From Balneolaceae bacterium (lineage in GTDB: Bacteria > Bacteroidota > Rhodothermia > Balneolales > Balneolaceae), in assembly GCA_017795005.1 (NCBI GenBank), contig CP051242.1, positions 3,402,119 through 3,466,118 of the forward strand: DNA of 64,000 bases, in the 5' to 3' direction. The stretch's first letter is position 1; each line of letters begins with the position of its first letter. Positions 11,396 to 24,801 of the stretch are shown here, one piece after another. The notes under the pieces are model-generated. The model searched no databases. It saw only the letters and a list, made by a program, of their open reading frames with translations, and was not told where the DNA came from. Position numbers and translations under genes: made by a program.

Positions 11396-11638
11396 ATGGA
11401 ACTAACGCAAAGAAATAAATTAAGGGAATGCAGTTTTTGTGGTTCTCTAGAAGGAAAGCCCAGAATTGTAGGAAGGTTTATAGTAGAACTATCAGAAGTA
11501 ACTCATGATGGTAAAACCATGCTCGCCTGTCAGGCTTGTCGGGATAATCACTCCAATCTTACACCTGGCGGAAATCTTACTATTCAGCATTCTCATGTAT
11601 TAGAGCATATATCTAAGATTAAGGATATGGGGTTTTAA
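11396..11638 (+). CDS. CxxC-x29-CxxC mini-protein (copy 1)
   Basis: This 80-residue protein has two CxxC pairs, CSFC at residues 13-16 and CQAC later, separated by exactly 29 residues. Between them is the stretch EGKPRIVGRFIVELSEV. Three other proteins in this window (11742-12002, 23895-24059, 24389-24640) have the same spacing and the same EG...V.L.EV...ACQ.C pattern, so this is a real gene family. Four cysteines in two CxxC knuckles suggest a zinc ribbon or treble clef. That is inference from spacing. There is no signal peptide, so it is likely cytoplasmic. The leader (11327-11395) has a possible stem of TTAAAGG (11347-11353) with CCTTTAA (11379-11385), which alone is weak. The function is unknown. 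Confidence 0.8.
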   Translation: MELTQRNKLRECSFCGSLEGKPRIVGRFIVELSEVTHDGKTMLACQACRDNHSNLTPGGNLTIQHSHVLEHISKIKDMGF

Positions 11639-11666: not shown

Positions 11667-11684
11667 TCTACAAAAACTCTACAA
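11667..11684 (+). promoter_or_regulatory. 11-bp-period direct repeat, likely operator
   Basis: TCTACAA occurs twice, at 11667-11673 and 11678-11684, exactly one helical turn (11 bp) apart. The same arrangement occurs upstream of the two TPR-HTH regulator genes (16591-16608, 18545-18564). It sits 57 bp before the preferred GTG start of the 86-residue CxxC gene. This is read directly; its role as a protein-binding site is inference. Confidence 0.5.
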
Positions 11685-11741
11685 CTACTGCGTTTGCAGT
11701 CTCAATCCTATATCATAGTCGAAACTATAAAGATTGGTGCA

Positions 11742-12002
11742 GTGACTTTAATAGACGACTATAGAAAAAAAGAAGAATTTGAATCAGATAGATACTGTGA
11801 ATTTTGTAATGCACAGGAAGGCAAACTACGAATGGTAGGTAATTTTATCGTGGAACTATCTGAAATTGAACTTGATGAGGAAACAAGATTAGCTTGTCAA
11901 AGCTGTAAAATCAAACACAGAAATTTTGAAAAGGCAAAACAGAGTGCTCATCGAAATAACCGTTCCCTTTTAAGAAAACTTTTTTCCTACGGTCATAAAT
12001 AA
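11742..12002 (+). CDS. CxxC-x29-CxxC mini-protein (copy 2)
   Basis: Second member of the family, 86 residues from the GTG at 11742. The frame can be extended to a TTG at 11694 (102 residues), but the extension has no counterpart in the paralogues, and the shorter form matches their length of 80-83. It has CEFC and CQSC with 29 residues between, including EGKLRMVGNFIVELSE, nearly identical to copies 1 and 4. A basic tail ends in RSLLRKLFSYGHK, which resembles RSLLHFGFK at the end of copy 4. A zinc-binding, nucleic-acid- or protein-binding role is plausible but unproven. It lies 103 bp after copy 1, with the TCTACAA direct repeat in the gap, so it may have its own promoter. Confidence 0.78.
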   Translation: MTLIDDYRKKEEFESDRYCEFCNAQEGKLRMVGNFIVELSEIELDEETRLACQSCKIKHRNFEKAKQSAHRNNRSLLRKLFSYGHK

Positions 12003-12067: not shown

Positions 12068-14902
12068 ATGATGCTTAGACAGCTTTCCTTTTTGTTCTTG
12101 CTTGCACTTGTGCCTCAATTCAATCTCATTGCTCAGGTTTCTTTTGGCGGACACCCTCCTTCCGTAAAATGGCTTCAAATCGATACAGATAATGTACGGG
12201 TTATTTATCCCGAAGGCAGATCGGAACAAGCAAAACGAATTGCTGGTCTTATCAATTATCTCCAAGAATATCATCTTGAAACGGTCGGGACAAGAACTAA
12301 GAAAATCGATCTTGTTCTTCAAACTAATCAGGTTATTAGCAATGGTTACGTAGGCCTTTCTCCATATCGCAGTGAGTTTTATGCCACTCCTTTTCAGAAT
12401 CATCAAATAGTTGGAACAGCAGATTGGCTGGACGAATTAGCAATTCATGAATACAGACACGCTTTACAGTTTTCCAATGCTAACAGAGGTGCAACCAAAG
12501 TTTTTCATGTTTTGCAGGGACAAGGAGGCTGGGCTGGTGCTATGTTTCTTTCTGTTCCAAACTGGTACCTCGAAGGCGATGCCGTAGTTAGCGAAACCGT
12601 GCTTACCAATAGCGGGCGTGGTCGGGTTCCGGAATTTTTTAAAGAACAAAGAGCGCTTCTTCTTAATGGAATTGATTACTCATACATGAAAGCCCGTAAT
12701 GGATCCTACAAAGATATTGTACCAAGTCATTACCCTCTTGGATATGCAATTACTAACTATGGTCGGAATCATTTCGGGCAGGATGTCTGGAAAAATATTC
12801 TTGCTGATGCAGGAGCTTACAAAACCATCATTTACCCTTTTTCGGGAGCAATGAATATACATACTGGAATGAGAGCTCCAACTATGTATAAAGCGGCCTA
12901 TTCGGAATTGAAAGAACAATGGAATAATGAGCTTCAAGAACTTTCACTGACAAAGCATAATAGCATCACTTCAAAACAAAAGACGGTAACTAATAACCAA
13001 AGTGCTCGCTTTTTGAAAGATGGATCTATAGTATTTCTACACTCAAGTTTTAAACAAACTCCCTCTATTCACCTGTTACATGAAGGGGCCCAAAAAAAGC
13101 TTACAGATATTGGCTCTTCTGTTGATTCTTATATCACGGAAAACAATAACCAACTTGCCTGGACTGAATATCAAAGAGATCCCAGATGGGGAAATTTGAA
13201 CTATACAAAAGTAATGCTCTATGATCTTAGATCAGGACTAAAACAAACTGTTGCTGAAAACACCAAATTGTTTTCTCCACAAATTTCAGGGGATGGTTCG
13301 CTAATTGTTGCAGCAAGATATACGTCTGAACTTGAACCGGATATTGTATTACTAAATACCGCTACAGGAAATATAGATCGTGTTCTTCAAAATTCTGAGC
13401 GTGATTTTATTTCTTACCCAAATTGGACTCATGACGATAACGCTATCATATATATTGCAAAACGGGGACATGAAATCGCCATTTATAGGTATGATCTTGT
13501 AACCAACAAAACTATTCCTCTAACAGAATGGACACATCATACCATTGGGAGTTTATCAGTAGGAAAAGACAGGGTTATATTTACCTCCTCATATTCGGGA
13601 ATCGACAATATATATTCTGTTGATCTAGATGGTAGTAAAATTATTACCCAGCTTACTTCAGCCAGAATCGGAGCATATCAGCCGGATATTTCAAGTGATG
13701 GTAAGACTATCATTTTTAGTGAGTTTACTGAAAAAGGATATGTATTAAGTTCTTTAGACATATCTGACGCTTTACAAAAAAAGATCACCCCAGAAGAGCC
13801 TGTTGAAATGGAGAGATTCAATATTCAATTGGCTGAATATGAAGAAAATATTCTTGATAAAATCCCGGAATCTGATTTTGAATCTAAACCTTATAAGCGC
13901 TTTCTTAAAGGTACTAAGTTACATGATTGGGGAGTTTCGGGTGGAGACAGCGAAGTTTACGGCAGACTTGGGTTCGCAAATATCCTAAATGATTTCAATA
14001 CCTTCTTATATGGTGGTTATAATCAAAATGAAGAGGCATTTCGATATGGAGTTGGAATTCAGTATTGGAAGTATTTTACCGGGTTAAATTTTTCTGCCTT
14101 TAATTCTCTAAGGGGAACAGTTGCTGAGGGGCGTACAGATTCTACGATTTTTATAAGAGGTGATGTTTTTGAAGAGAATAAAATCAGTGCCGGTTTTACT
14201 ATTCCATTAGTATATCAAAGAGGGAACTTCACAACTGGTTTTACAGCAAATGTTAATTTTGCTAACTATCGGCTTGGAAACACTTTCTCATTTGAAAATG
14301 AAAAAGCATCACTTACTTCGTTTGAAACCCAGATCACTTTTTATAATCTGAGAAGAAGAGCTCTTCAAAATGTTCAGTCCAGGCTTGGACAGTATATTCT
14401 CTTTTCGCATTCCACATCATTAACTGAACTTTCCGGAAAGGTTTTTAATATTCAAGCCGGACTCTATTTACCTGGAATTGGATTAAATCATGGTATTTTG
14501 ATTGAAGCAGAGTATCAAAAAGAGCTGCTTACCAATTCGTATCAATATGCAGATTTTTTTAATTACGCCCGGGGATATCCATACCGACCTAATGATTATG
14601 CCCAAAGGATATCTTTTAATTACCAGCTACCACTTCTGTATCCTGATTGGGGCTTTTTCAATTTTGCATATTTCAAGCGGGTTAGATTGAATGCGTTTAG
14701 TGACTTAGCAAAACTTGAATATGAAAACTTTCCACCACGTTTTGATGTTGCACAAGCTTCTTTTGGAGGAGAGTTAATGATTGATACTATTATGTTGAAT
14801 GTACTGCCTGTTACATTCATACTTCGTCAAAGCTTTTTACCTGATGCATTTCCCGGGGAACCTACTTCAAATTTTGATTTCTTTATCTCAATTTCTCTTT
14901 AG
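12068..14902 (+). CDS. exported TolB-like propeller protein with HExxH peptidase-like domain
   Basis: A signal peptide (about 1-22, ending LIAQ) is followed by a domain with HEYRH at residues 127-131 and WYLEGDAVVSE, whose Glu169 could be the third metal ligand of a gluzincin-type zinc site. The middle (about 310-600) contains TolB/WD40-like beta-propeller units, such as SPQISGDGSLIVAARY and YQPDISSDGKTIIFSE. The C-terminal 300 residues are rich in alternating aromatic strands and end FDFFISISL, consistent with an outer-membrane beta-barrel-like segment. Length is normal for this Bacteroidota family. The substrate is unknown, and activity is inferred only from HExxH. Its stop overlaps the stop of the convergent TPR-HTH gene by 4 bp. 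Confidence 0.85.
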   Translation: MMLRQLSFLFLLALVPQFNLIAQVSFGGHPPSVKWLQIDTDNVRVIYPEGRSEQAKRIAGLINYLQEYHLETVGTRTKKIDLVLQTNQVISNGYVGLSPYRSEFYATPFQNHQIVGTADWLDELAIHEYRHALQFSNANRGATKVFHVLQGQGGWAGAMFLSVPNWYLEGDAVVSETVLTNSGRGRVPEFFKEQRALLLNGIDYSYMKARNGSYKDIVPSHYPLGYAITNYGRNHFGQDVWKNILADAGAYKTIIYPFSGAMNIHTGMRAPTMYKAAYSELKEQWNNELQELSLTKHNSITSKQKTVTNNQSARFLKDGSIVFLHSSFKQTPSIHLLHEGAQKKLTDIGSSVDSYITENNNQLAWTEYQRDPRWGNLNYTKVMLYDLRSGLKQTVAENTKLFSPQISGDGSLIVAARYTSELEPDIVLLNTATGNIDRVLQNSERDFISYPNWTHDDNAIIYIAKRGHEIAIYRYDLVTNKTIPLTEWTHHTIGSLSVGKDRVIFTSSYSGIDNIYSVDLDGSKIITQLTSARIGAYQPDISSDGKTIIFSEFTEKGYVLSSLDISDALQKKITPEEPVEMERFNIQLAEYEENILDKIPESDFESKPYKRFLKGTKLHDWGVSGGDSEVYGRLGFANILNDFNTFLYGGYNQNEEAFRYGVGIQYWKYFTGLNFSAFNSLRGTVAEGRTDSTIFIRGDVFEENKISAGFTIPLVYQRGNFTTGFTANVNFANYRLGNTFSFENEKASLTSFETQITFYNLRRRALQNVQSRLGQYILFSHSTSLTELSGKVFNIQAGLYLPGIGLNHGILIEAEYQKELLTNSYQYADFFNYARGYPYRPNDYAQRISFNYQLPLLYPDWGFFNFAYFKRVRLNAFSDLAKLEYENFPPRFDVAQASFGGELMIDTIMLNVLPVTFILRQSFLPDAFPGEPTSNFDFFISISL

Positions 14903-16509
14903 CCTAGTTTTTTCAGGTATTGTACCAAATCCTCTTCAGCTGCCAGGCTCAGTTTCTTTTTAAGACGGTATCTTGCCTGAGTAACACTCTTGGCGTTAAT
15001 TCCGATTATATTTCCTATTTCTTTATTAGACAAATCCATTTGCACCAACGAAGCCAGTCTCCTCTCCCCTTTTGTAAGTGATTCTGTTTCCTGATCCAGC
15101 TTTCTGAAGAAACCACTGTTAATTTGCTCTATCTTATTAAAGAGTTGATCCTCATCTTCTGTTAATTTCACATTTTGTCTTAATGAATCGATTAAAGAAT
15201 TCATCTCTTTCTTCGAATCAAAGGTCTTTAGCTCTTTGGTAAAAGACTTAAGCTTTTCTATTACTTCACTTATAAAAGAATCCTTTTCATTTATGAGAAG
15301 TCCATAGTTTTCTAATTCTTTTTGAATACTCTGAATTTCAAGCGCCTTTTCCCGTTCCTTTCGTTTTGTTTGTTGCCAGTAAATTATACTTCCAATAGTT
15401 ATAAAAAAGATTGCAACAACAATAGCTATTAACGTCTTTAATCGTGCTTCTTTATTTTCGGCTTCGAGCAGTAATATTTCCTGCTCTTTCTTTTCTGTCT
15501 CATACTTTTGCTGCGCATTTACCAGTTCCTGTTGAGTTGAAATATTGATAATACTATCGCTAAAAGACTTATACAGTTCATGGTGATAAAGCGCGGAATC
15601 TAAAGCCCCCGTTTCCTGAAAGGTGACGTAAAGTAGTTGATGAGCATCTCTTATAAGTGGAAGCGAATTTACCTGATAGGCAAGCTGACGAGATTTAGAA
15701 GCAAACTCACCTGCTTCTTTAAAACTATTTTGTTCTCTGTATATCGAAGAAATATCTCCGTAAATATCTGCTAGCCCATATACATTATTGAATTTCTCAT
15801 CTATTTCCATGGCTCTGGTAGCAAATATCAGTGCGGAATCCAGTTTCCCTTCACGCTGATAAATAAGACCTATATTCGTTAAGTCAGTACTCATCCTGAT
15901 AGAGTCTTTTATTTCTTCCCGAATCTTCAGCGACTGCAAGTAGTTATTTTTTGCTGAATCAAAATCTCTCTGCTGATAATTGATGCTGCCAATGGTACTG
16001 ATTGCAATAGCAGCAGACTGTAAGTCCCCGGATTCTTCAAAATAAGAAAGAGATTCTTCGTAGTAGTTTATTGCTGTATCATATTGCCCGTTGGTATAAT
16101 AAGTATATCCCATCATTCCAATTACTCTTCCCTTAAAATCTACTTCATTCGAAGCATCCAGATTTTGATAGGCTTCTTCTAAATATCCAATCGCTTGATC
16201 AGACTCCCCTTTTACTGCATGATACCTGCCAAGGTGATAAAGTGACCGTAATTTAAAATTGTCGTTGTTTTGAAGGTCTGCGAATTCTTTAAATTCAACA
16301 GCAAAATAGTGCATACTGTCAATATCAACCCGCATATAATTATCCAGTAAGGTCTGATAGATTCTACTTTTTTCCAGAGGAGTATTTTCCTCTTCAAGCA
16401 TTCCCTTAAGCTGGTGAATTGAATAATCATTGAATGATTCTTGAGCAGTAATACTGCCCCAAAAAAGAAATATGGCAAGTACTAAAATTCTATTTACCCA
16501 GATGAACAT
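14899..16509 (-). CDS. membrane-tethered TPR regulator with LuxR-type HTH (paralogue 1)
   Basis: The 536-residue protein has a signal or anchor segment (about 1-22) and tetratricopeptide repeats (about 60-330; units like IGMMGYTYYTNGQYDTAINYY). One membrane helix follows (about 356-377), then a coiled-coil linker, then a LuxR-like HTH (about 483-530: LTKGERRLASLVQMDLSNKE, KSVTQARYRLKKKL). This layout predicts an exported sensory part and a cytoplasmic DNA-binding part on one chain, a one-component membrane regulator. A paralogue of the same order is at 16838-18508. Upstream lie TCTACAA/TTGTAGA direct repeats (16519-16536, 16591-16608), which could be autoregulatory. The ligand and regulon are unknown. 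Confidence 0.9.
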   Translation of the reverse strand: MFIWVNRILVLAIFLFWGSITAQESFNDYSIHQLKGMLEEENTPLEKSRIYQTLLDNYMRVDIDSMHYFAVEFKEFADLQNNDNFKLRSLYHLGRYHAVKGESDQAIGYLEEAYQNLDASNEVDFKGRVIGMMGYTYYTNGQYDTAINYYEESLSYFEESGDLQSAAIAISTIGSINYQQRDFDSAKNNYLQSLKIREEIKDSIRMSTDLTNIGLIYQREGKLDSALIFATRAMEIDEKFNNVYGLADIYGDISSIYREQNSFKEAGEFASKSRQLAYQVNSLPLIRDAHQLLYVTFQETGALDSALYHHELYKSFSDSIINISTQQELVNAQQKYETEKKEQEILLLEAENKEARLKTLIAIVVAIFFITIGSIIYWQQTKRKEREKALEIQSIQKELENYGLLINEKDSFISEVIEKLKSFTKELKTFDSKKEMNSLIDSLRQNVKLTEDEDQLFNKIEQINSGFFRKLDQETESLTKGERRLASLVQMDLSNKEIGNIIGINAKSVTQARYRLKKKLSLAAEEDLVQYLKKLG

Positions 16510-16518
16510 CGAAGTGTT

Positions 16519-16536
16519 TTGTAGATTGTTTGTATA
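16519..16536 (-). promoter_or_regulatory. 11-bp-period direct repeat, likely operator
   Basis: On the minus strand this reads TATACAA-N4-TCTACAA (plus strand TTGTAGA at 16519-16525 and TTGTATA at 16530-16536), 10 bp upstream of the TPR-HTH gene start. The half-sites match those at 16591-16608 in the opposite orientation. A binding site is inferred from recurrence. Confidence 0.4.
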
Positions 16537-16590: not shown

Positions 16591-16608
16591 TCTACAAAAG
16601 GTCTACAA
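16591..16608 (+). promoter_or_regulatory. 11-bp-period direct repeat, likely operator
   Basis: TCTACAA at 16591-16597 and again at 16602-16608, 11 bp apart, in the region between the TPR-HTH gene start (16509) and the candidate RNA. The spacing and half-site are the same as at 11667-11684. Confidence 0.5.
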
Positions 16609-16647
16609 CAACTTTTAGAGGCTTTCATTTATTTATACTTGTTCACC

Positions 16648-16833
16648 CTATATAAAAAGCCTTTATGGGATTTACCATTACCTTAAGCTAATCCCATAAA
16701 TACCCCGTGAGTGTTTTGGATGAATCTGAATACTCTCCTTTTAAGAAACTAAATAGCGTAAGCTACTTAGCAGTAATAACTACTGACCAGACAAGTAAAA
16801 GCTCCCGACTTTCAATAAAGCGGGGCTTTTTTT
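16648..16833 (+). ncRNA. candidate structured RNA, copy A, with its own terminator
   Basis: This fills most of the 328-bp gap 16510-16837 between two minus-strand genes. A TATACTTG box at 16634-16641 (close to the TAnnTTTG -7 form) could give a start near 16648. A perfect 11-bp stem pairs 16662-16672 with 16690-16700. The core from 16681 aligns with copy B (24644-24801): CCTTAA..TAA.CCCAT, GT.AGT, a TTGGA-TGAA-TCTGA hairpin (B: TCGGA-TGGC-TCCGA), GAAACTA, a central hairpin TAGC-GTAA-GCTA, then TTAGCAGTAATAACTACT, and a terminator. In copy B the central hairpin has a different sequence but still pairs, which supports RNA structure. No open reading frame of note is seen. The exact start is uncertain. 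Confidence 0.55.
16798..16833 (+). terminator. rho-independent terminator of candidate RNA copy A
   Basis: AAAGC-T-CCCG pairs with CGGGGCTTT, extended inside by CTTT-CAAT-AAAG, followed by seven T (16827-16833). It ends 4 bp before the stop of the convergent TPR-HTH gene and points to transcription on the plus strand, where no protein gene exists. Confidence 0.8.
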
Positions 16834-16837
16834 ATTT

Positions 16838-18508
16838 TTAAACCTCATTCAAAATCTCCAATAGATCTTCTTCAGGATTAAGGTTCATTTTCTTTCTAAG
16901 CCGGTACCTGCTCTGCTCCACACTTTTAGGTTCTATATTAAAAATACTTGCTATTTCTTTAGAGCTTAAATTTAATCTTATTAGAGCCGCTAAACGCTCA
17001 TCTCTTTCTGTGAGATCAGGAAAACGCTCTTTTAATTCCATGAAGAAACCAGAACATACCTGATTGACCCTGAACTCAAGTTCCTCCCTGTCTTTATTCA
17101 GTGTTATATTTTGAAGAATTTTCATTTCCATTCTGGTGAGTTCTCTTCGCATTTCAGTTGGATCAGAGTCAAACTTAACACTATGAATTTGCTCCTTTAC
17201 TTGTTCAAGGCAATCATTTTTTTCTGCAATGTGGAGCGCATAATTTGTCAGTTCCTTTTGAACATGTTCTGATCTTAACTTTTCATTTTCTAATTCCTCC
17301 AGTGCTAATTTCCGTTTGGATTCGGATAGCTGGCGATCTTTCTCTTTGAGTTCTAGTTCTTTTCTCTTTTTAAATATTGTTCTCCAAAAAACCAGCACTA
17401 CTATTAACAATGTGGAACCAAGTATCACGGAGATCAAAACAACACGGGTTTTCTGAAGCTCATTTAGAGAGGCAAGTAACTCGATTTCTTTCTCTCGTTT
17501 CTCTGCCTCGTTCTTTTCTCTTTGTTCAATCAAAATCTCTCTGCTGCTCTCGCTAATCACACTATCACTATAAGCTTTATACTGAATAAAATTTTCCAAA
17601 GCTTTTTTGAAATCTCCCATAGCTTCATACACCATAAATAGTGCTTCGTACGATTCACTCAATAATTGATAAGAACTGTATTCTTTTGACAATTCCAATG
17701 CATTCTCAGCGTAACTTAAAGCGATATCATAGTTTCCCAGTCGGATGTGTAATTTTGATAATTCCTCATATGAACCAATCCTTTTTTGAATTGCACCCGT
17801 GTTCTCATCTATCTCCAAAGCTCTCTCCAAAAAAATAAGTGCTGAATCAAGTTGGTTTTTATTCTCATAAATCAATGCCAGATTCTTTATATCAGATGTC
17901 ATTAATACTGAGTCCTTCAAACCCTCTTTAATAGCCAGAGACCTAAGGTAATACTGCTTTGCCGTTTCATCATCTTCTTTTTGATAATAAATACTTCCAA
18001 TCGTGCTTAAAGCAATTGCAACAGGGCGTTGAGCCTCTGCCCGTTCAAAGTATGGAATAGATTCCTGGTAATATTCTATAGCAGAGTCAAATTGGTCATT
18101 GGTGTAGTAAACGTACCCAATCATACCGATAACTCTTCCTGCCATAGCCTCATCAGTTCGTTTGGAAGTCAGCTCCCTCGCAATCTTAAAATGTTTGATT
18201 GCTTCATTAGCTACCCCTTTTACAGCATAGTATCTACCCAGGTGATAATGAGCTCTGAGTTGATATTCAGAATCTCCTGTTTCTTCAGCAAATTCTAAAA
18301 AGTCCTCTGCATATAGGTACATCGTATCGAGATCAATATTTCTGTACCTACTTATTAGCCAGCCGTAGATTTCTTCTAATTGCCTTTCATCCTCTACAGC
18401 TTCTAAGGCTGCTACTAATTCTTGTGTCGAATATTCGGAATATTGTGAAAATATCGATTGCGTACTAACCACTACTATGATTAATACGAGTGTAATAGCT
18501 CTCTTCAT
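16838..18508 (-). CDS. membrane-tethered TPR regulator with LuxR-type HTH (paralogue 2)
   Basis: This 556-residue paralogue of the preceding gene has the same order. It has a signal peptide (about 1-21, ending SIFSQ), TPRs (about 60-330; for example IGMIGYVYYTNDQFDSAIEYY), a membrane helix (about 353-376), a long charged coiled coil (about 380-450), and a C-terminal LuxR-like HTH (about 500-545: LTERDERLAALIRLNLSSKE, KSVEQSRYRLRKKM). The two proteins share many residues in both TPR and HTH parts, so they arose by duplication. Upstream, CCCCTACAG is repeated at 18545-18553 and 18556-18564 with an 11-bp period, a variant of the motif near paralogue 1. They may sense different ligands but share targets; that is inference. 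Confidence 0.9.
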   Translation of the reverse strand: MKRAITLVLIIVVVSTQSIFSQYSEYSTQELVAALEAVEDERQLEEIYGWLISRYRNIDLDTMYLYAEDFLEFAEETGDSEYQLRAHYHLGRYYAVKGVANEAIKHFKIARELTSKRTDEAMAGRVIGMIGYVYYTNDQFDSAIEYYQESIPYFERAEAQRPVAIALSTIGSIYYQKEDDETAKQYYLRSLAIKEGLKDSVLMTSDIKNLALIYENKNQLDSALIFLERALEIDENTGAIQKRIGSYEELSKLHIRLGNYDIALSYAENALELSKEYSSYQLLSESYEALFMVYEAMGDFKKALENFIQYKAYSDSVISESSREILIEQREKNEAEKREKEIELLASLNELQKTRVVLISVILGSTLLIVVLVFWRTIFKKRKELELKEKDRQLSESKRKLALEELENEKLRSEHVQKELTNYALHIAEKNDCLEQVKEQIHSVKFDSDPTEMRRELTRMEMKILQNITLNKDREELEFRVNQVCSGFFMELKERFPDLTERDERLAALIRLNLSSKEIASIFNIEPKSVEQSRYRLRKKMNLNPEEDLLEILNEV

Positions 18509-18544
18509 TGCTCTTAATTTTAATTATAGCAAGTGTAAAGGACA

Positions 18545-18564
18545 CCCCTACAGTGCCCCTACAG
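18545..18564 (+). promoter_or_regulatory. 11-bp-period direct repeat, likely operator
   Basis: CCCCTACAG occurs at 18545-18553 and 18556-18564, in the 262-bp gap (18509-18770) between the divergent TPR-HTH gene and the giant beta-helix gene, 37-56 bp from the TPR-HTH start. A looser pair, TCTACCT-N4-ACTACAT, lies at 18662-18679. The gap also has a bulged hairpin, GTTACCT (18613-18619) with AGGTTAAC (18625-18632). The rest is A/T-rich with nothing else I can name. Confidence 0.45.
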
Positions 18565-18770
18565 ACCACATACTATAACCCAGACTTTAATTGATGATTT
18601 TTTGAAAATCTCGTTACCTCTTGCAGGTTAACAATTTACTGGGATAAAAATAAATTAAAACTCTACCTGAACACTACATTTTTTAAAGCAAAAAAACTCA
18701 TCCTATAGATTTTGGTACTAATTATCTGTCTGGTTTAAGAAATCCTCAAAAAATTCGAAAGGTGTGCGAA

Positions 18771-21700
18771 ATGAAACGCAGAAAGTTTATTCACTCTGGA
18801 GATTACTATGTTTCAAACTCGAAAATTGACCTCCATCAGCAAAGCTTTTTAAAACTACTGGTGGTCTTTTTTCTTTATTTTACAAGTTCCATAACGTTAT
18901 TTGCCCAAACAAACCTTTATGTGGATATCAGTGGCAACGACACCGGTAACGACTGTACCTCCCAGATATCCCCTTGTGCTTCAATACAATATGCCATTGA
19001 CTCAGCTGTCTCCGGAGATACTATCAATATCGCCAGTGGTTCTTATTCAGAGGATTTAGTCATTTCCACTTCTGGTTTAATGCTCTCTGGGAGTCAAGCT
19101 GGCGTAAATGCCATCGGAAGAAGTGTAAGTGAGTCATCAATCACTGGAAGTATTCGAATTACATTCAGCGCAGATAGCCTTACCATTGATGGTCTTGAAA
19201 TCATGGAGGGAAACACCGTTCAGGGAAGTAAAGCCGGTATTTACTTAGAGAAAAATGCGACTAATATCACGATCCGAAATACCATATTTAGTCGATCAGG
19301 AGATGTAGATGGTGATTTATACAGGGGAATACTTTCTATAGTAGCGGGTAATAATACTGACCTGATCATTCAACGAAATAGCTTCTCAGGCTGGGCTACT
19401 GGTATTTATCTCAATCCAGGAGCTTATGGAGCAAATATTCTCAACAATGAGTTTGATGATAACTATGTAGGGGTTTCAGTGGATGGACCGGATAGTATTA
19501 CAATCTCCGGAAATTCATTTTCAGATAATGTTTTTGAAGGGCTCGGACTAGGCCCCTGGACAGATGGAAGTAAAACTTCGCCGGATACTTTACAAGCTTT
19601 TGTTGAGAACAATAGCTTTGAAGGAAATACCATACATGTAGGACTTTATACCGGATCTGGCACAAAATTTGATTTTTCGACAAACAGCTTTGAAGGAACA
19701 ACAGCCAGTTCAATGTCAATTAACCAGATTATTACTACAGAAGAAAAGATCGGCCATGGTGTAGATGCTTCAGGTGGGTATTCGGGACTGGCGTTACTTC
19801 GTGAGAATATAATTGCGGTAACCAATGGTAATAGTATAACTACAGCCTTTGGCTTTGCTGAAGCCGAAGATAGTATTCTGGTTGGCTCAGGCACTTTTGA
19901 TTCATTTACGATAGGCTCATCTGGTCCTGATAGCTTAACATTCATAGGGGTATCGGGAGCAGAAATATCCCGTGATTCTTCCGGATCGAGGCGTGCAGTT
20001 GTAGACCTCCGTGCAGATGCGATTAAAGTTGAAGGTTTCAGTATCAAAGGTGGAAATTATCATGTTGGAATATCGGTGGCTGGGCAACATGTTATAGTTA
20101 ATAATAACTCCATTGATAGTGTTTTGACTGGAATACAAACCACAACCCAATATGTTGAAGGAAATGCAACCATAACTGGTAATACGATAACAAACGCAGG
20201 CTATGGAATAAGCCTCCAGAACAATTCCAATACAGTTACGGATAATGATATCACCATAACTACTGAAGGTTTTGGAATTGGCTCTGCTTCAAATACAATT
20301 ACAGGAAATATTGTTTCTGTAGATGAAGACGGTATTGTATTAGAGACCTATACCACCGAAGATTATGACGCTCTTCCTGGAGCTGATATTGACCTCTCCG
20401 AATTTCTTGAAAACAATACTTTTACCAGAGCTGCATATGTTGTCGACGAATCCGGAATAGCAATAGAAACAGTGTTTGGAGGAATTGAAATTCCGGTTGA
20501 TTCTGCAGCAGCCGGAGATAGTATTTTTGTTCTTGCAGGCACCTATCAAAATGGAAACATCATAATTAGTAAAGACAGCTTGTCTATTAATGCAGAAGAA
20601 GGAGTTTCAGGCTTAGACAGCGTAATGCTCGATGGGGACATTTCAAGATTTAGTCTGGATGGAGAGGGTATTACAATGTCCGTAACTGGAAATAGCAGTA
20701 ATACGCTTTTCGAACTTAGAGGAGGTAATATAACGGTTAATGGAGCAGCCGGTGTTGACACATTATTAGTTGATGGTAATAGAAGCGACTTCACTATAAC
20801 AGAAACAGAAAATGGAGTTGTTATTACAGATGATCGTTCTGGATCACCAAATGGTGAAACAACCCTTATAAATATTCAAAGAATCGTTTTTGCCAATTTA
20901 GAGGTTTCTTTGGTTACCGGGGAAAACAATCCATTCAGCTATTTTAATACTTACAGCACTGATTTCTCGGATTTTGACCCAGGATCAATTTCAAATGGTG
21001 AAAACGGTTGGTTAGTTAGCGGCGGGTCATCCCGTGATCAGGAAATTGTTGACATAGGTGGGCTTCGTGGGCATGTATTCAAAATGTCAAGCGATCCTAA
21101 CATATCTGATTTTGCTGGTCCGTACACAGCATCGTTAACCGAAACTGCCGGAGAAACCGGTACCTCTGCAAATGTTAATACTATACGAACTTCCTTTGAT
21201 TTTAAAGCGGTAAGTGCATCACCTGATTCATCCAGACTGGAAATTGACTTTGGAGTAAATGCAGGAACTGACAGAGCTAATTTCATGATCATTGAATGGG
21301 AGGAGTCTACCAGGCTACGCATAGCTGTAAATGAGCCGACAACGGATGGAAGTTGGACAACCACAAATTTCGCTGCTTTTAATGGAAACCGGACACTAGT
21401 TCAAAACATTGATACGGGCTCATCGGCATGGCATACACTGGAAATGGAGCTTCGCTTTGTAGATGGGAGCAATAATGATATCATCGATATCTACCTGGAT
21501 GGTTCCTATATCGGAACTACCACTACATTTGAGAATTATTGGGAGTTTTCTATAGGAGATGACCGTACAACTGCTGCCGAAAAAGGGGTTACTTCCAGAC
21601 TGTTTTTCCGCCCCTCTGCATCTGGTGCACCTTCTGATGGAACAGGCGGTAAAAATCAGGGTTTTTATTTCGATAACCTAAACATAACTTCTTACGATTC

Positions 21701-23807
21701 GAATAATCCGGTTTCTTATCCTGGCAACTCATTAAGCTTTGCAGATAATGCTTCAAAAGTAATAATTCCAAATAGTTATGCCCTGGATTTCTCATCTGAG
21801 TTTTCAGTAGAAGGTTGGGTAAAAATTAACGAGTTTACTTCTGAAAGCCAGTCAATCATACAAAAGGGAAGCGATTCGTGGAGTATTCACAGGTTTTCGA
21901 ACTCAAATACCCTTGGATTTAGCACCTGGATTTCCGGTTCTCATCACATCCTCAAAGGAAAAACTCCATTAATCGATAACGAATGGCATCATGTAGCAGT
22001 CACCTTTGATGGAACAAACAAGATTCTGTATATAGATGGTATTCAGGATACAACGGAATCCGTCTCCGGTTCAATTGACACCAATAATGATCCAATTTCT
22101 ATAGGAGGGTGGATCGGTAATATTGATGAATTGAGAATGTGGAGTACCGCTCGTACTGCGGATGATATTCGTAATAATGTATTTCAGGAAATCGACGCCA
22201 ATACTTCTGGCTTAGCCGGGTATTGGAAAATAGACGAAGGAAGCGGGAATCTACTTAATGATATTTCCTCAAACGGGAACGATGCTGGTATTTCTCCAAG
22301 CTCGAATATTTTCTGGAGTAGTATGGCTCATCCAATCGGAACCTATATTACAGGTGACGAAGGCTGGCGAATCATTACTTCACCCGCTAATGGTGTAACC
22401 TATGCTGAACTCTTTCAAAACATTTGGACCCAGGGCTTTACTGGTGCTGATTCAGAAACTGGAGATCCAAACGTATACACTTATGTTGAAGGTGATGGAG
22501 ACACAGATCCATCTTCACGTGGCTTTCAAGCCATCAGCTCCGCATCTGACACCGCTACAAAAGGTCAGGCCTTCATCGCTTACTTATATGAAGATAATGA
22601 CCCTTTTACTGAAGGGACTCAGGGCGGTTTCCCAAAACTAATTAAAACGGATAGCACTCAACTATCTGGGGAAATTACTCTTCCTTTATCACTTACAAAA
22701 TCGGGAGGTGGGGGCACTTTTGATTCAGCAAATGATGGATGGAACCTAATAGGAAATCCTTATGCATCTTCAATCGATTGGGATAACGATCATGGATGGA
22801 TACGTACGGGCTTAGATGATGTAGTATATGTATGGAGCGATAGTGCAAATAATGGATCTGGTGCTTATCTTTCCTGGAATGGTGTAACAGGAACACTGAA
22901 TAGTGGAATAATAGCTCCTCTTCAAGGATTTTGGGTAAAAGCGAATAACTCCGCTACACCTTCTATTTCGGTAAAAGATACAGCCCGAAGTTCCGGGGGT
23001 ACATTGCTCAAGAAAAGAGCCTTCACTCAAATAGAGTTTTCCATAGAGGGAAATGGCTTGCAAAACAAAAGTATCATAATGTTTTCTGATGATGCTGAAC
23101 TAGCTAAAGATTCGTTTGATGCATATAAACTTGCTTCTAATAATCCTTACTGGCTTTCTGTTTCAACAACTCAATCTGAATCTTTAGAACAGTTAGATAT
23201 TCAGGCTCTTCCCGCATCATTTTCAACGATTGATCTCAATCTTAATATCGATGGAAGTAAGCTTGAGGGGGAATACTTACTAAGATGGAATCCAAAACTT
23301 ATTCCAGAAAACTGGATTGCCACACTCTTTGACCTTGAAACCAGTAATGAGTTCTCCTTACTGGAAAAAGGCTTTACTTCCATTCTCCTGAACTCTTCGT
23401 ACAAAGAAAAAGAAGCTTCACCTTTTAATAGAGTGACCATCCCAAAAACTCTGAAGAAGAAAGCAACTACAACTGATAGATTCCGAATTATTTTGAAACA
23501 GAATACCCAAACTGATATCTATGAAAATCCTGATTTACCTCAGAAGCTGGAGCTGAATCAGAATTATCCGAACCCATTTAACCCTTCAACTGTCATCAAA
23601 TTTGCTCTTCCGGAACAAGGTTTGGTTAGTCTTACAGTTTTTGATCTGCTTGGAAGACCAGTAGCGAGATTAGTTGAATATCAGAAATTAAATGCCGGGT
23701 ATCATCAGGTAACCTTTAAGGCTGAAAATCTTGCATCAGGAATATACTACTACCGACTGGATACAAATCAAAAAACCATTATTAAGCAAATGACTTTAAT
23801 AAGGTAA
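18771..23807 (+). CDS. giant T9SS cargo with parallel beta-helix and LamG domains
   Basis: The product is about 1678 residues from the ATG at 18771, preceded by AAAGG. A GTG three codons upstream is less likely. After a signal region (about 15-46, ending LFAQ) comes a DUF1565-like start (YVDISGNDTGNDC, SIQYAIDSAVSGDTI) and two stretches of right-handed parallel beta-helix repeats (about 50-320 and 330-610; ITGNTITNAGYGISLQNNS-type units). A jelly-roll-like part (about 720-960), a LamG domain (about 986-1156) and a GWNLIGNPYASSIDW module (about 1310-1400) follow. The last 85 residues are the T9SS sorting domain (QNYPNPFNPSTVI...TLIR). It is probably exported and attached to or released from the cell surface. 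Beta-helix domains often bind or cleave polysaccharide, but no catalytic set is evident. Confidence 0.92.
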   Translation: MKRRKFIHSGDYYVSNSKIDLHQQSFLKLLVVFFLYFTSSITLFAQTNLYVDISGNDTGNDCTSQISPCASIQYAIDSAVSGDTINIASGSYSEDLVISTSGLMLSGSQAGVNAIGRSVSESSITGSIRITFSADSLTIDGLEIMEGNTVQGSKAGIYLEKNATNITIRNTIFSRSGDVDGDLYRGILSIVAGNNTDLIIQRNSFSGWATGIYLNPGAYGANILNNEFDDNYVGVSVDGPDSITISGNSFSDNVFEGLGLGPWTDGSKTSPDTLQAFVENNSFEGNTIHVGLYTGSGTKFDFSTNSFEGTTASSMSINQIITTEEKIGHGVDASGGYSGLALLRENIIAVTNGNSITTAFGFAEAEDSILVGSGTFDSFTIGSSGPDSLTFIGVSGAEISRDSSGSRRAVVDLRADAIKVEGFSIKGGNYHVGISVAGQHVIVNNNSIDSVLTGIQTTTQYVEGNATITGNTITNAGYGISLQNNSNTVTDNDITITTEGFGIGSASNTITGNIVSVDEDGIVLETYTTEDYDALPGADIDLSEFLENNTFTRAAYVVDESGIAIETVFGGIEIPVDSAAAGDSIFVLAGTYQNGNIIISKDSLSINAEEGVSGLDSVMLDGDISRFSLDGEGITMSVTGNSSNTLFELRGGNITVNGAAGVDTLLVDGNRSDFTITETENGVVITDDRSGSPNGETTLINIQRIVFANLEVSLVTGENNPFSYFNTYSTDFSDFDPGSISNGENGWLVSGGSSRDQEIVDIGGLRGHVFKMSSDPNISDFAGPYTASLTETAGETGTSANVNTIRTSFDFKAVSASPDSSRLEIDFGVNAGTDRANFMIIEWEESTRLRIAVNEPTTDGSWTTTNFAAFNGNRTLVQNIDTGSSAWHTLEMELRFVDGSNNDIIDIYLDGSYIGTTTTFENYWEFSIGDDRTTAAEKGVTSRLFFRPSASGAPSDGTGGKNQGFYFDNLNITSYDSNNPVSYPGNSLSFADNASKVIIPNSYALDFSSEFSVEGWVKINEFTSESQSIIQKGSDSWSIHRFSNSNTLGFSTWISGSHHILKGKTPLIDNEWHHVAVTFDGTNKILYIDGIQDTTESVSGSIDTNNDPISIGGWIGNIDELRMWSTARTADDIRNNVFQEIDANTSGLAGYWKIDEGSGNLLNDISSNGNDAGISPSSNIFWSSMAHPIGTYITGDEGWRIITSPANGVTYAELFQNIWTQGFTGADSETGDPNVYTYVEGDGDTDPSSRGFQAISSASDTATKGQAFIAYLYEDNDPFTEGTQGGFPKLIKTDSTQLSGEITLPLSLTKSGGGGTFDSANDGWNLIGNPYASSIDWDNDHGWIRTGLDDVVYVWSDSANNGSGAYLSWNGVTGTLNSGIIAPLQGFWVKANNSATPSISVKDTARSSGGTLLKKRAFTQIEFSIEGNGLQNKSIIMFSDDAELAKDSFDAYKLASNNPYWLSVSTTQSESLEQLDIQALPASFSTIDLNLNIDGSKLEGEYLLRWNPKLIPENWIATLFDLETSNEFSLLEKGFTSILLNSSYKEKEASPFNRVTIPKTLKKKATTTDRFRIILKQNTQTDIYENPDLPQKLELNQNYPNPFNPSTVIKFALPEQGLVSLTVFDLLGRPVARLVEYQKLNAGYHQVTFKAENLASGIYYYRLDTNQKTIIKQMTLIR

Positions 23808-23822
23808 AGAGAGTACAAAATA

Positions 23823-23890
23823 CCCTTAAGCTAAATGCTAAATCTATGTAAGTAATGGGGTGAATCCCTTCGCTTCCATTAAATAAACCG
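23823..23890 (+). other. partial copy C of the candidate RNA, 5' domain only
   Basis: Between the giant gene and the 54-residue CxxC gene lies a stretch aligning with the start of copies A and B. It has CCTTAAGCTAA, TAAAT, GT.AGT, and TGAATC in the loop of a GGGG-TGAA-TCCC hairpin, enclosed by TAAT/ATTA (extendable to TAATGG/CCATTA). The 3' half with the central hairpin, TTAGCA...AACTACT and the terminator is missing; the CxxC reading frame begins instead at 23895. It may be a leader of that gene or a remnant. Confidence 0.4.
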
Positions 23891-23894
23891 ATAT

Positions 23895-24059
23895 ATGAAT
23901 AATAAATGCTATTTGTGCCGGACTAAAGAAGGAGCTATGCAACCGCAAATGAGACTAAGGGTTTTTCTCAAACAAGTAAAAGTAGCGGGAGTAACCAAAA
24001 AGGTATGTCAGTTCTGTGTACCAAATAATCGGTCGAGATATAATCAATTTTCTAAATAA
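23895..24059 (+). CDS. CxxC-x29-CxxC mini-protein (copy 3, 54 residues)
   Basis: ATG at 23895 to TAA at 24059 encodes 54 residues. CYLC at residues 5-8 and CQFC at 38-41 are separated by 29 residues, the same spacing as in the three larger family members, with EG directly after the first pair and VCQFC at the second. The interior is more diverged and basic (MRLRVFLKQVKV). The exact spacing argues that it is a true, shortened family member. The partial RNA-like element C lies just upstream, and the PID-CTERM gene starts 11 bp after its stop, so the two are probably co-transcribed. Zinc binding is inferred; the function is unknown. Confidence 0.72.
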   Translation: MNNKCYLCRTKEGAMQPQMRLRVFLKQVKVAGVTKKVCQFCVPNNRSRYNQFSK

Positions 24060-24070
24060 TATAATCAGAT

Positions 24071-24268
24071 ATGAAAACTAAATATTTCCTTATATCCATA
24101 TTACTGATACTAATAATTATCATTGTATCAGCCTCGACAAAAGTACTTAGTCAACCTGGTCTGCCATCGGCGCCAAGTCAGGCACCTATCGATGGTGGTT
24201 TGTATTTATTAGCCGCCGCCGGTGGAGCCTATGCATTTAAGAAATTAAGAGAAAGAAAGAGCGAATAA
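24071..24268 (+). CDS. small PID-CTERM membrane protein
   Basis: This 65-residue protein has an N-terminal hydrophobic signal (about 5-28), a short proline/serine linker (QPGLPSAPSQAP), then PIDGGLYLLAAAGGAYAFKK and a basic end (LRERKSE). PIDGG plus a second hydrophobic stretch and a basic tail is the PID-CTERM pattern, a putative C-terminal sorting signal in small proteins of Bacteroidota-like bacteria. Here almost nothing lies between signal and sorting motif, so the mature peptide would be only about 10-15 residues. No processing enzyme is encoded in the window. It lies 11 bp after the 54-residue CxxC gene. Confidence 0.75.
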   Translation: MKTKYFLISILLILIIIIVSASTKVLSQPGLPSAPSQAPIDGGLYLLAAAGGAYAFKKLRERKSE

Positions 24269-24290
24269 CTTGCTCGTTTGCTCTAAATAT

Positions 24291-24372
24291 TAAACCGAAA
24301 CTTCGCACTAATATACTGCCCCCAAGAAGTCTCTCTTGACTAAGAGTTTTCTTCTACAATCTGCTCGGTTTA
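24291..24372 (+). promoter_or_regulatory. candidate folded leader before CxxC copy 4
   Basis: TAAACCGA (24291-24298) can pair with TCGGTTTA (24365-24372), enclosing a hairpin CTCTT-GACT-AAGAG (24333-24346) that is itself flanked by GAAG (24326-24329) and CTTC (24351-24354). The outer stem ends 16 bp before the gene start. A single TCTACAA lies at 24353-24359. The structure is read by eye and no relative was found in the window, so it is tentative. Confidence 0.35.
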
Positions 24373-24388
24373 GAAACAAAATAATTGA

Positions 24389-24640
24389 ATGGAACCTATA
24401 ACACATAACAAAAATAAAGCCTGCGACTTCTGCCTTTCGGAAGAAGGACAACTAAGAATGATAGGAAATTATACCGTTTCGTTAGTTGAGGTAGAAATTG
24501 ATGGACAACCTAAATTAGCTTGCCAAAGCTGCCGGATAAAAAATAACAATCTCAGAAAAATTTTGGGGCTAAGAACTTCATATAAGATAGTTGAACCAAC
24601 CAGGAAAAAAAGAAGCCTGCTTCATTTTGGTTTCAAGTGA
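24389..24640 (+). CDS. CxxC-x29-CxxC mini-protein (copy 4)
   Basis: The 83-residue product has CDFC near residue 12 and CQSC 29 residues later, with EGQLRMIGNYTVSLVEVEID between. It is closest to copy 2 in both the core and the tail (RKKRSLLHFGFK against RSLLRKLFSYGHK). The C-terminal 30 residues are strongly basic, which would suit nucleic-acid or membrane-surface contact. The stop (24638-24640) is followed after 3 bp by candidate RNA copy B, so the RNA may be the 3' end of this transcript. No signal peptide is seen. The function is unknown. Confidence 0.8.
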   Translation: MEPITHNKNKACDFCLSEEGQLRMIGNYTVSLVEVEIDGQPKLACQSCRIKNNNLRKILGLRTSYKIVEPTRKKRSLLHFGFK

Positions 24641-24643
24641 GAG

Positions 24644-24801
24644 CCTTAATGGTAACCCATTTTTTTTATACCTGTAAGTTTCGGATGGCTCCGACCAGTC
24701 TATTATCTGAGAAACTAGTTAACTCCACATAAAGTGGGTTTATTAGCATAACAACTACTAACCGTAGAACCCAAAAGCCCGTTAGCAATAACGGGCTTTT
24801 T
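24644..24801 (+). ncRNA. candidate structured RNA, copy B, with its own terminator
   Basis: It aligns with copy A (16681-16833) along its whole length. Shared blocks are CCTTAA, CCCAT, GT.AGT, GGATG, GAGAAACTA, TTAGCA..AA.AACTACT.ACC and a terminator. AGTTTC can pair with GAAACT as an outer helix around TCGGA-TGGC-TCCGA. The central hairpin is TCCAC-ATAAA-GTGGG (24724-24738), whereas copy A has TAGC-GTAA-GCTA at the same place, so pairing is kept with different bases. It fills the gap between a CxxC gene and convergent typA and may be a processed 3' untranslated region or a separate RNA. It has no tRNA-like ends, which argues against tmRNA. Confidence 0.55.
24773..24801 (+). terminator. strong rho-independent terminator of candidate RNA copy B
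   Basis: AAAAGCCCGTTA and TAACGGGCTTTT form a perfect 12-bp stem with a GCAA loop and a T run. It ends 2 bp before the typA stop. The A run on the other side lets it also stop typA transcription. Confidence 0.9.

Follow-up and report, generated by a model that had tools for sequence, protein, structure and literature searches.

Separated by about 8 kb, two non-coding stretches of a Balneolaceae genome (G000) align with one another, which raises the question of whether they are copies of one structured RNA and, if so, what that RNA would do. We analysed them within a window, the whole 64,000-nucleotide stretch of DNA in which they lie, and in related genomes. With moderate confidence, we read the two copies, A and B, as a new family of structured regulatory small RNAs (sRNAs) of one Balneolaceae genus, co-controlled with its neighbours and acting in trans. 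The features of the two copies are as follows.

16645–16833, plus strand: RNA copy A, 5′ end placed from the promoter box and 3′ end from the terminator
16662–16700, plus strand: 5′ hairpin of A with ACCTTAAGC in its loop, stem letters differing between G000 and G001 with the fold kept
16709–16735, plus strand: hairpin 1 of A (GAGT...TTGGA-TGAA-TCTGA...ACTC), with changed pairs, kept in three genomes
16749–16770, plus strand: variable hairpin 2 of A with constant CTAA/TTAG closing arms (10 of 1000 inner-part shuffles fold equally well)
16780–16795, plus strand: unpaired stretch CTACTGACCAGACAAG, conserved in four of the five sequences, which may act as a seed or bind a protein
16796–16833, plus strand: terminator of A, from sequence and fold
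24645–24801, plus strand: RNA copy B, the 3′ end of an operon whose last ORF is 24389–24640
24681–24694, plus strand: hairpin 1 of B (TCGGA-TGGC-TCCGA), weak alone
24715–24746, plus strand: variable hairpin 2 of B with closing arms CTAG/TTAG (8 of 1000 shuffles fold equally well)
24773–24801, plus strand: terminator of B, from sequence and fold

We found the two aligning stretches where the original prediction had placed them, with a similarity beyond chance. Without terminators, A against B scored 177 (match 5, mismatch −4) compared with a maximum of 159 among 1000 dinucleotide-shuffled pairs, and under 1/−1 scoring 1 of 1000 shuffled pairs attained the real score. The copies were reciprocal best partners in a scan of the whole window on both strands, and the 3′ block TTAGCA..AACTACT.ACC had exactly two occurrences in the genome (3.75 Mb), one in each copy. 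Both folded better than shuffled sequences (z = −3.71 for A and −3.81 for B), and both are closed by an intrinsic terminator, the rho-independent, plus-strand kind that had been predicted. From predicted promoter to terminator, copy A is approximately 185–190 nt long. An apparent match, CCTTAAGCTAA, common to A (16681) and the 3′ region of a giant gene described below (23824), was rejected, as 5 of 100 shuffles gave four near-matches.

Orthologous loci were located in two sister genomes of the same genus (G001 and G002) by gene order and without using the RNA, such that the sequences found there are an independent test of the two-copy proposal. The gene neighbourhood of the window was present in both. 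The interval between two TPR-LuxR genes contained a clear copy A in G001 and G002 (L082:9968–10098, minus strand, and L083:15366–15505, plus strand), and the interval before typA in G002 contained a shortened copy B without hairpin 1 (L083:17675–17777). In G001 copy B was missing, with a Cys-rich ORF directly abutting the end of typA. The sister genomes contributed three more RNA sequences, giving five from three genomes, with copy A in three of three genomes and copy B in two of three. The missing B in G001 and the missing hairpin 1 in G002 indicate that B is not firmly constrained.

The two hairpins proposed for each copy were present in both A and B. The variable hairpin 2 exists but had been drawn too short, since the constant arms CTAA/TTAG (CTAG/TTAG in B) extend it. 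All five sequences carried (A/G)GAACTA...TTAG or AGAAACTA...TTAG with a hairpin in between, the upstream block reading GAAACTA in three sequences and GGAACTA in two. Closed by the constant CUAR...UUAG, hairpin 2 paired better than composition-matched shuffles in all five sequences (10, 4, 1, 8 and 6 of 1000 inner-part shuffles folding equally well), and its inner letters were 0–25% identical among A orthologues. Hairpin 1 kept its pairing, with changed pairs, in the three A copies; in A an outer GAGT/ACTC stem surrounds it. In B, which lacks the outer stem, hairpin 1 on its own did no better than shuffles (331 of 1000). The 5′ hairpin of A was found in G000 and G001 and was missing from G002 and from B, while terminators were present in all five sequences, preceded in four by CTGACC-N0..2-AGACAAG.

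The original prediction had proposed relatives and covariation as its check, and the sister loci do keep the RNA pairing through compensatory changes across homologues (five sequences, three genomes). Pairs changed on both sides numbered 8 of 26 in an alignment fitted to the model, compared with a mean of 3.5 in column shuffles (0 of 500 attaining 8) and 0–4 in slid-partner controls, an alignment that leans to structure and has the terminator helix out of register, so that the segment shuffles are the main structural support. No conserved reading frame was found by eye in the five sequences, which showed indels that were not multiples of three and altered starts and stops. A leader peptide from the ATG of hairpin 1 was likewise rejected, its frame being broken by a two-base indel and the ATG being absent in G002. 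Judged from this comparison, A and B are structured, apparently non-coding RNA.

No known class had been recognised for these copies, and Rfam 15 returned no family at its gathering threshold for either A or B; only a tRNA passed in the window. The best sub-threshold match on B reached 22 bits against a threshold of 47, and sub-threshold matches were mostly to terminator-ended RNAs. The Bacteroides sRNA BTnc231 (RF04180) resembles the copies in length and in having a terminator, but its weak match to B (19.3 bits) is far under the gathering score of 80.4 and A had no match. Both strands of the B terminator region weakly matched BTnc231, which indicates that the terminator probably carries the score. 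By sequence and covariance search, the family is new to Rfam. A literature search returned nothing on Balneolaeota small RNA or Balneolaceae noncoding RNA, which is weak evidence of absence.

The distribution of the family was assessed with a covariance model (R1) run on 92 family genomes with strict filters and 19 relatives with lax filters, and with a terminator-free model (R2) run on 39 family genomes. These searches recovered the five known copies and no other credible one; R1 matches in G011, G012 and G005 (26–28 bits) were terminator-driven, lacked the conserved blocks and were unseen by R2. A nucleotide search of 59 related genomes gave no real match to B, and the best one (G050, E = 8 × 10−4) was rejected as lying inside truB. 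Pattern matches among 296 phylum genomes were scattered and not commoner than in the reversed control, a single viral-contig pattern match was inside coding sequence, and a seed-pattern match in G014 apparently was too. Phage and plasmid collections gave no match, and a contig scan with the regulator-2 alignment returned the G001 contig alone. Among the genomes searched, only three, all of one genus, carry the family, which makes it lineage-specific rather than a widespread class.

We then considered what could drive expression of RNA A. It had been described as having no neighbouring plus-strand gene, and the next gene is indeed convergent, but the copy is not isolated, as it has a conserved predicted promoter of the type found at its neighbours. 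The elements concerned are as follows.

16591–16607, plus strand: 11-bp direct repeat TCTACA-AAAGG-TCTACA, where an activator of RNA A may bind, conserved in three genomes with the same spacing
16634–16642, plus strand: TATACTTGT, predicted −7/−10 promoter box of RNA A, a TAT[AT] box in three genomes
11667–11683, plus strand: repeat before the Cys-rich ORF 11694–12002, TATA box 25–27 nt downstream, kept in G001 and G002
18662–18678, plus strand: direct repeat ahead of the giant-gene operon (the one closed by RNA B), followed 25 nt later by a TATA box and kept in G001
16520–16536, minus strand: imperfect version of the repeat, TATACA-N5-TCTACA, where regulator 1 starts, in G000 and G002
14899–16509, minus strand: TPR-LuxR regulator 1, divergent from RNA A, with TPR repeats and a C-terminal GerE/LuxR match
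16838–18508, minus strand: TPR-LuxR regulator 2, convergent with RNA A, with domain matches as in regulator 1

Upstream of A in all three genomes, TCTACA-N5-TCTACA was followed after 26–27 nt by TATACTTGT, TATTATTGT or TATAATTGT, and the repeat region was 86% identical between G000 and G001 compared with 50% in the spacer after it. A TATA or TATT box 25–27 nt downstream of the same repeat was also present before the Cys-rich ORF in three genomes and before the giant T9SS-type gene in two, the operon of the latter having a distal second repeat at 18547–18563. The box was at the expected offset in 8 of 9 promoter-proximal repeat sites compared with a 5.7% background in the same flanks; the orthologous sites are not independent, but three separate promoters agree. 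Exact repeat matches numbered 4, 3 and 4 genome-wide in the three genomes (reversed controls 0–2), and 6 of the 7 in G000 and G001 belonged either to this neighbourhood or to the upstream regions of TPR-LuxR paralogues at other loci. The adjacent TPR-LuxR proteins probably bind the direct repeat, to judge only from their co-location; regulator 2 orthologues were 81% identical in G001 and 57–59% identical in G002.

Elsewhere in G000 and G001 (L136 and L127, near position 1500), TPR-LuxR paralogues were divergent from a gene encoding ~158 aa, and two CTCTACA direct-repeat sites separated the divergent genes, a layout that parallels the A locus. A G002 occurrence of the same repeat as at RNA A (L135 151–167) immediately follows a 5S rRNA-like sequence; the short ORF after it resembles a secreted Cys-containing peptide.

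Copy B has a different context, at the end of an operon consisting of the giant gene, a PID-CTERM gene and a Cys-rich ORF, and was directly 3′ of the Cys-rich ORF in G000 and G002. The giant gene (18762–23807) encodes a secreted protein of 1681 aa in which NosD-like, laminin-G-like and Por secretion-tail domains were recognised; it was in place in G001 and missing from that place in G002. The 65-aa product of 24071–24268 in this operon has a PID-CTERM sorting domain (NF046080). Small ORFs with two CxxC motifs (zinc-ribbon-like) were found at 11396–11638, 11694–12002, 24389–24640 and about 23899–24040, the last being short and placed between the giant gene and ORF 24071. Such ORFs matched no Pfam or NCBIfam family and occurred in several copies per genome in the genus and its near relatives.

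Bacterial sRNAs with hairpins and a terminator are a well-known kind, and trans action via a conserved unpaired segment is the default for an architecture like that of A. The family resembles terminator-ended bacterial trans-acting sRNAs in being intergenic, with its own predicted promoter, hairpins, a narrow phylogenetic range and a conserved unpaired stretch 5′ of the intrinsic terminator, but differs from the described families in giving no sequence or covariance match to them. A predicted promoter of its own, a terminator and the lack of a gene downstream make a stand-alone sRNA the best reading of copy A. The position of B at an operon 3′ end, after the Cys-rich ORF in two genomes, recalls 3′UTR-derived sRNAs, from which A differs in its own predicted promoter and in having no upstream ORF. 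A and B would accordingly be paralogous copies of one structured small RNA, A standing alone and B forming the structured 3′ end of the giant-gene operon, either as part of the mRNA or released from it. The direct-repeat promoter, probably bound by TPR-LuxR proteins, would turn on RNA A alongside the nearby secreted and Cys-rich proteins, and the two hairpins would present the unpaired CUACUGACC(C)AGACAAG 5′ of the terminator for target mRNA pairing or protein binding.

In the main rival explanation, Cys-rich-ORF operons carry the element as a structured 3′ end of their mRNA that is linked to the terminator and serves stability or processing; B would be the normal case and A a remnant left behind a regulated promoter once its ORF was lost. 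It would account for the position of B directly after the Cys-rich ORF in G000 and G002, for the best conserved block of the family adjoining the terminator, and for a copy A that has no ORF yet retains the same promoter type. We nevertheless consider it unlikely, as the ORF-less A is the copy kept in all three genomes with hairpins and promoter conserved, other Cys-rich ORFs in the window have no element downstream, and the B-site ORF of G001 manages without one.

Absence of B from the G001 site, where the ORF continues straight to typA, would also be expected of a short mobile or duplicated repeat that carries a terminator and has no function of its own. That origin is very improbable: the genome has just two copies, neither terminal repeats nor target duplications were noted, pairing is kept by compensatory changes, and A has stayed in place in three species. 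A functional minus strand, as the 3′ UTR of regulator 2 at A and of typA at B, has in its favour that the terminators are roughly bidirectional and that A has a good fold on the minus strand too; hairpin 2 had a mixed strand preference, the minus strand folding slightly better in A of G000 and G001. Two of four sequences had a much stabler hairpin 1 on the plus than on the minus strand (−7.4 vs. −1.3 in A of G000 and −11.6 vs. −4.4 in A of G002), the G-U pairs of this hairpin favouring the plus strand, the repeat-box promoter is oriented along the plus strand, and typA of G001 manages without the element, which together leave the minus-strand reading very improbable as well. A riboswitch or attenuator would likewise be a structured RNA ending in a terminator, but such a cis-acting leader is the least probable reading, as convergent genes follow both copies and neither has a plus-strand gene directly downstream.

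For the favoured reading of a trans-acting sRNA, we searched for targets among local genes. Seed duplexes with these genes were not consistently better than those of shuffled seeds (regulator genes, P = 0.03–0.8). As no more than a lead, seven conserved nucleotides upstream of the giant gene match RNA A (CCAGACA/TGTCTGG). The sequence concerned, ATTATCTGTCTGGTTTAA (18700–18740), is invariant between G000 and G001 ahead of the giant gene and is complementary to CCAGACA of RNA A; by this complementarity it is a possible RNA A target site. We tentatively suggest, as a doubtful extension, a circuit in which TPR-LuxR regulators, acting through 11-bp CTACA direct repeats set at a constant spacing from a −10/−7 box, co-express the sRNA with secreted T9SS or PID-CTERM proteins and small double-CxxC proteins, and in which the sRNA feeds back on this regulon.

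These results provide a concrete candidate sRNA, whose promoter, boundaries and structure are predicted in three species, together with a candidate DNA site for the TPR-LuxR regulators. They also indicate that a structured RNA can change its letters fast within one genus yet hold its fold. If the suggested circuit is real, it would be specific to this lineage and previously undescribed, with RNA A as its RNA arm.
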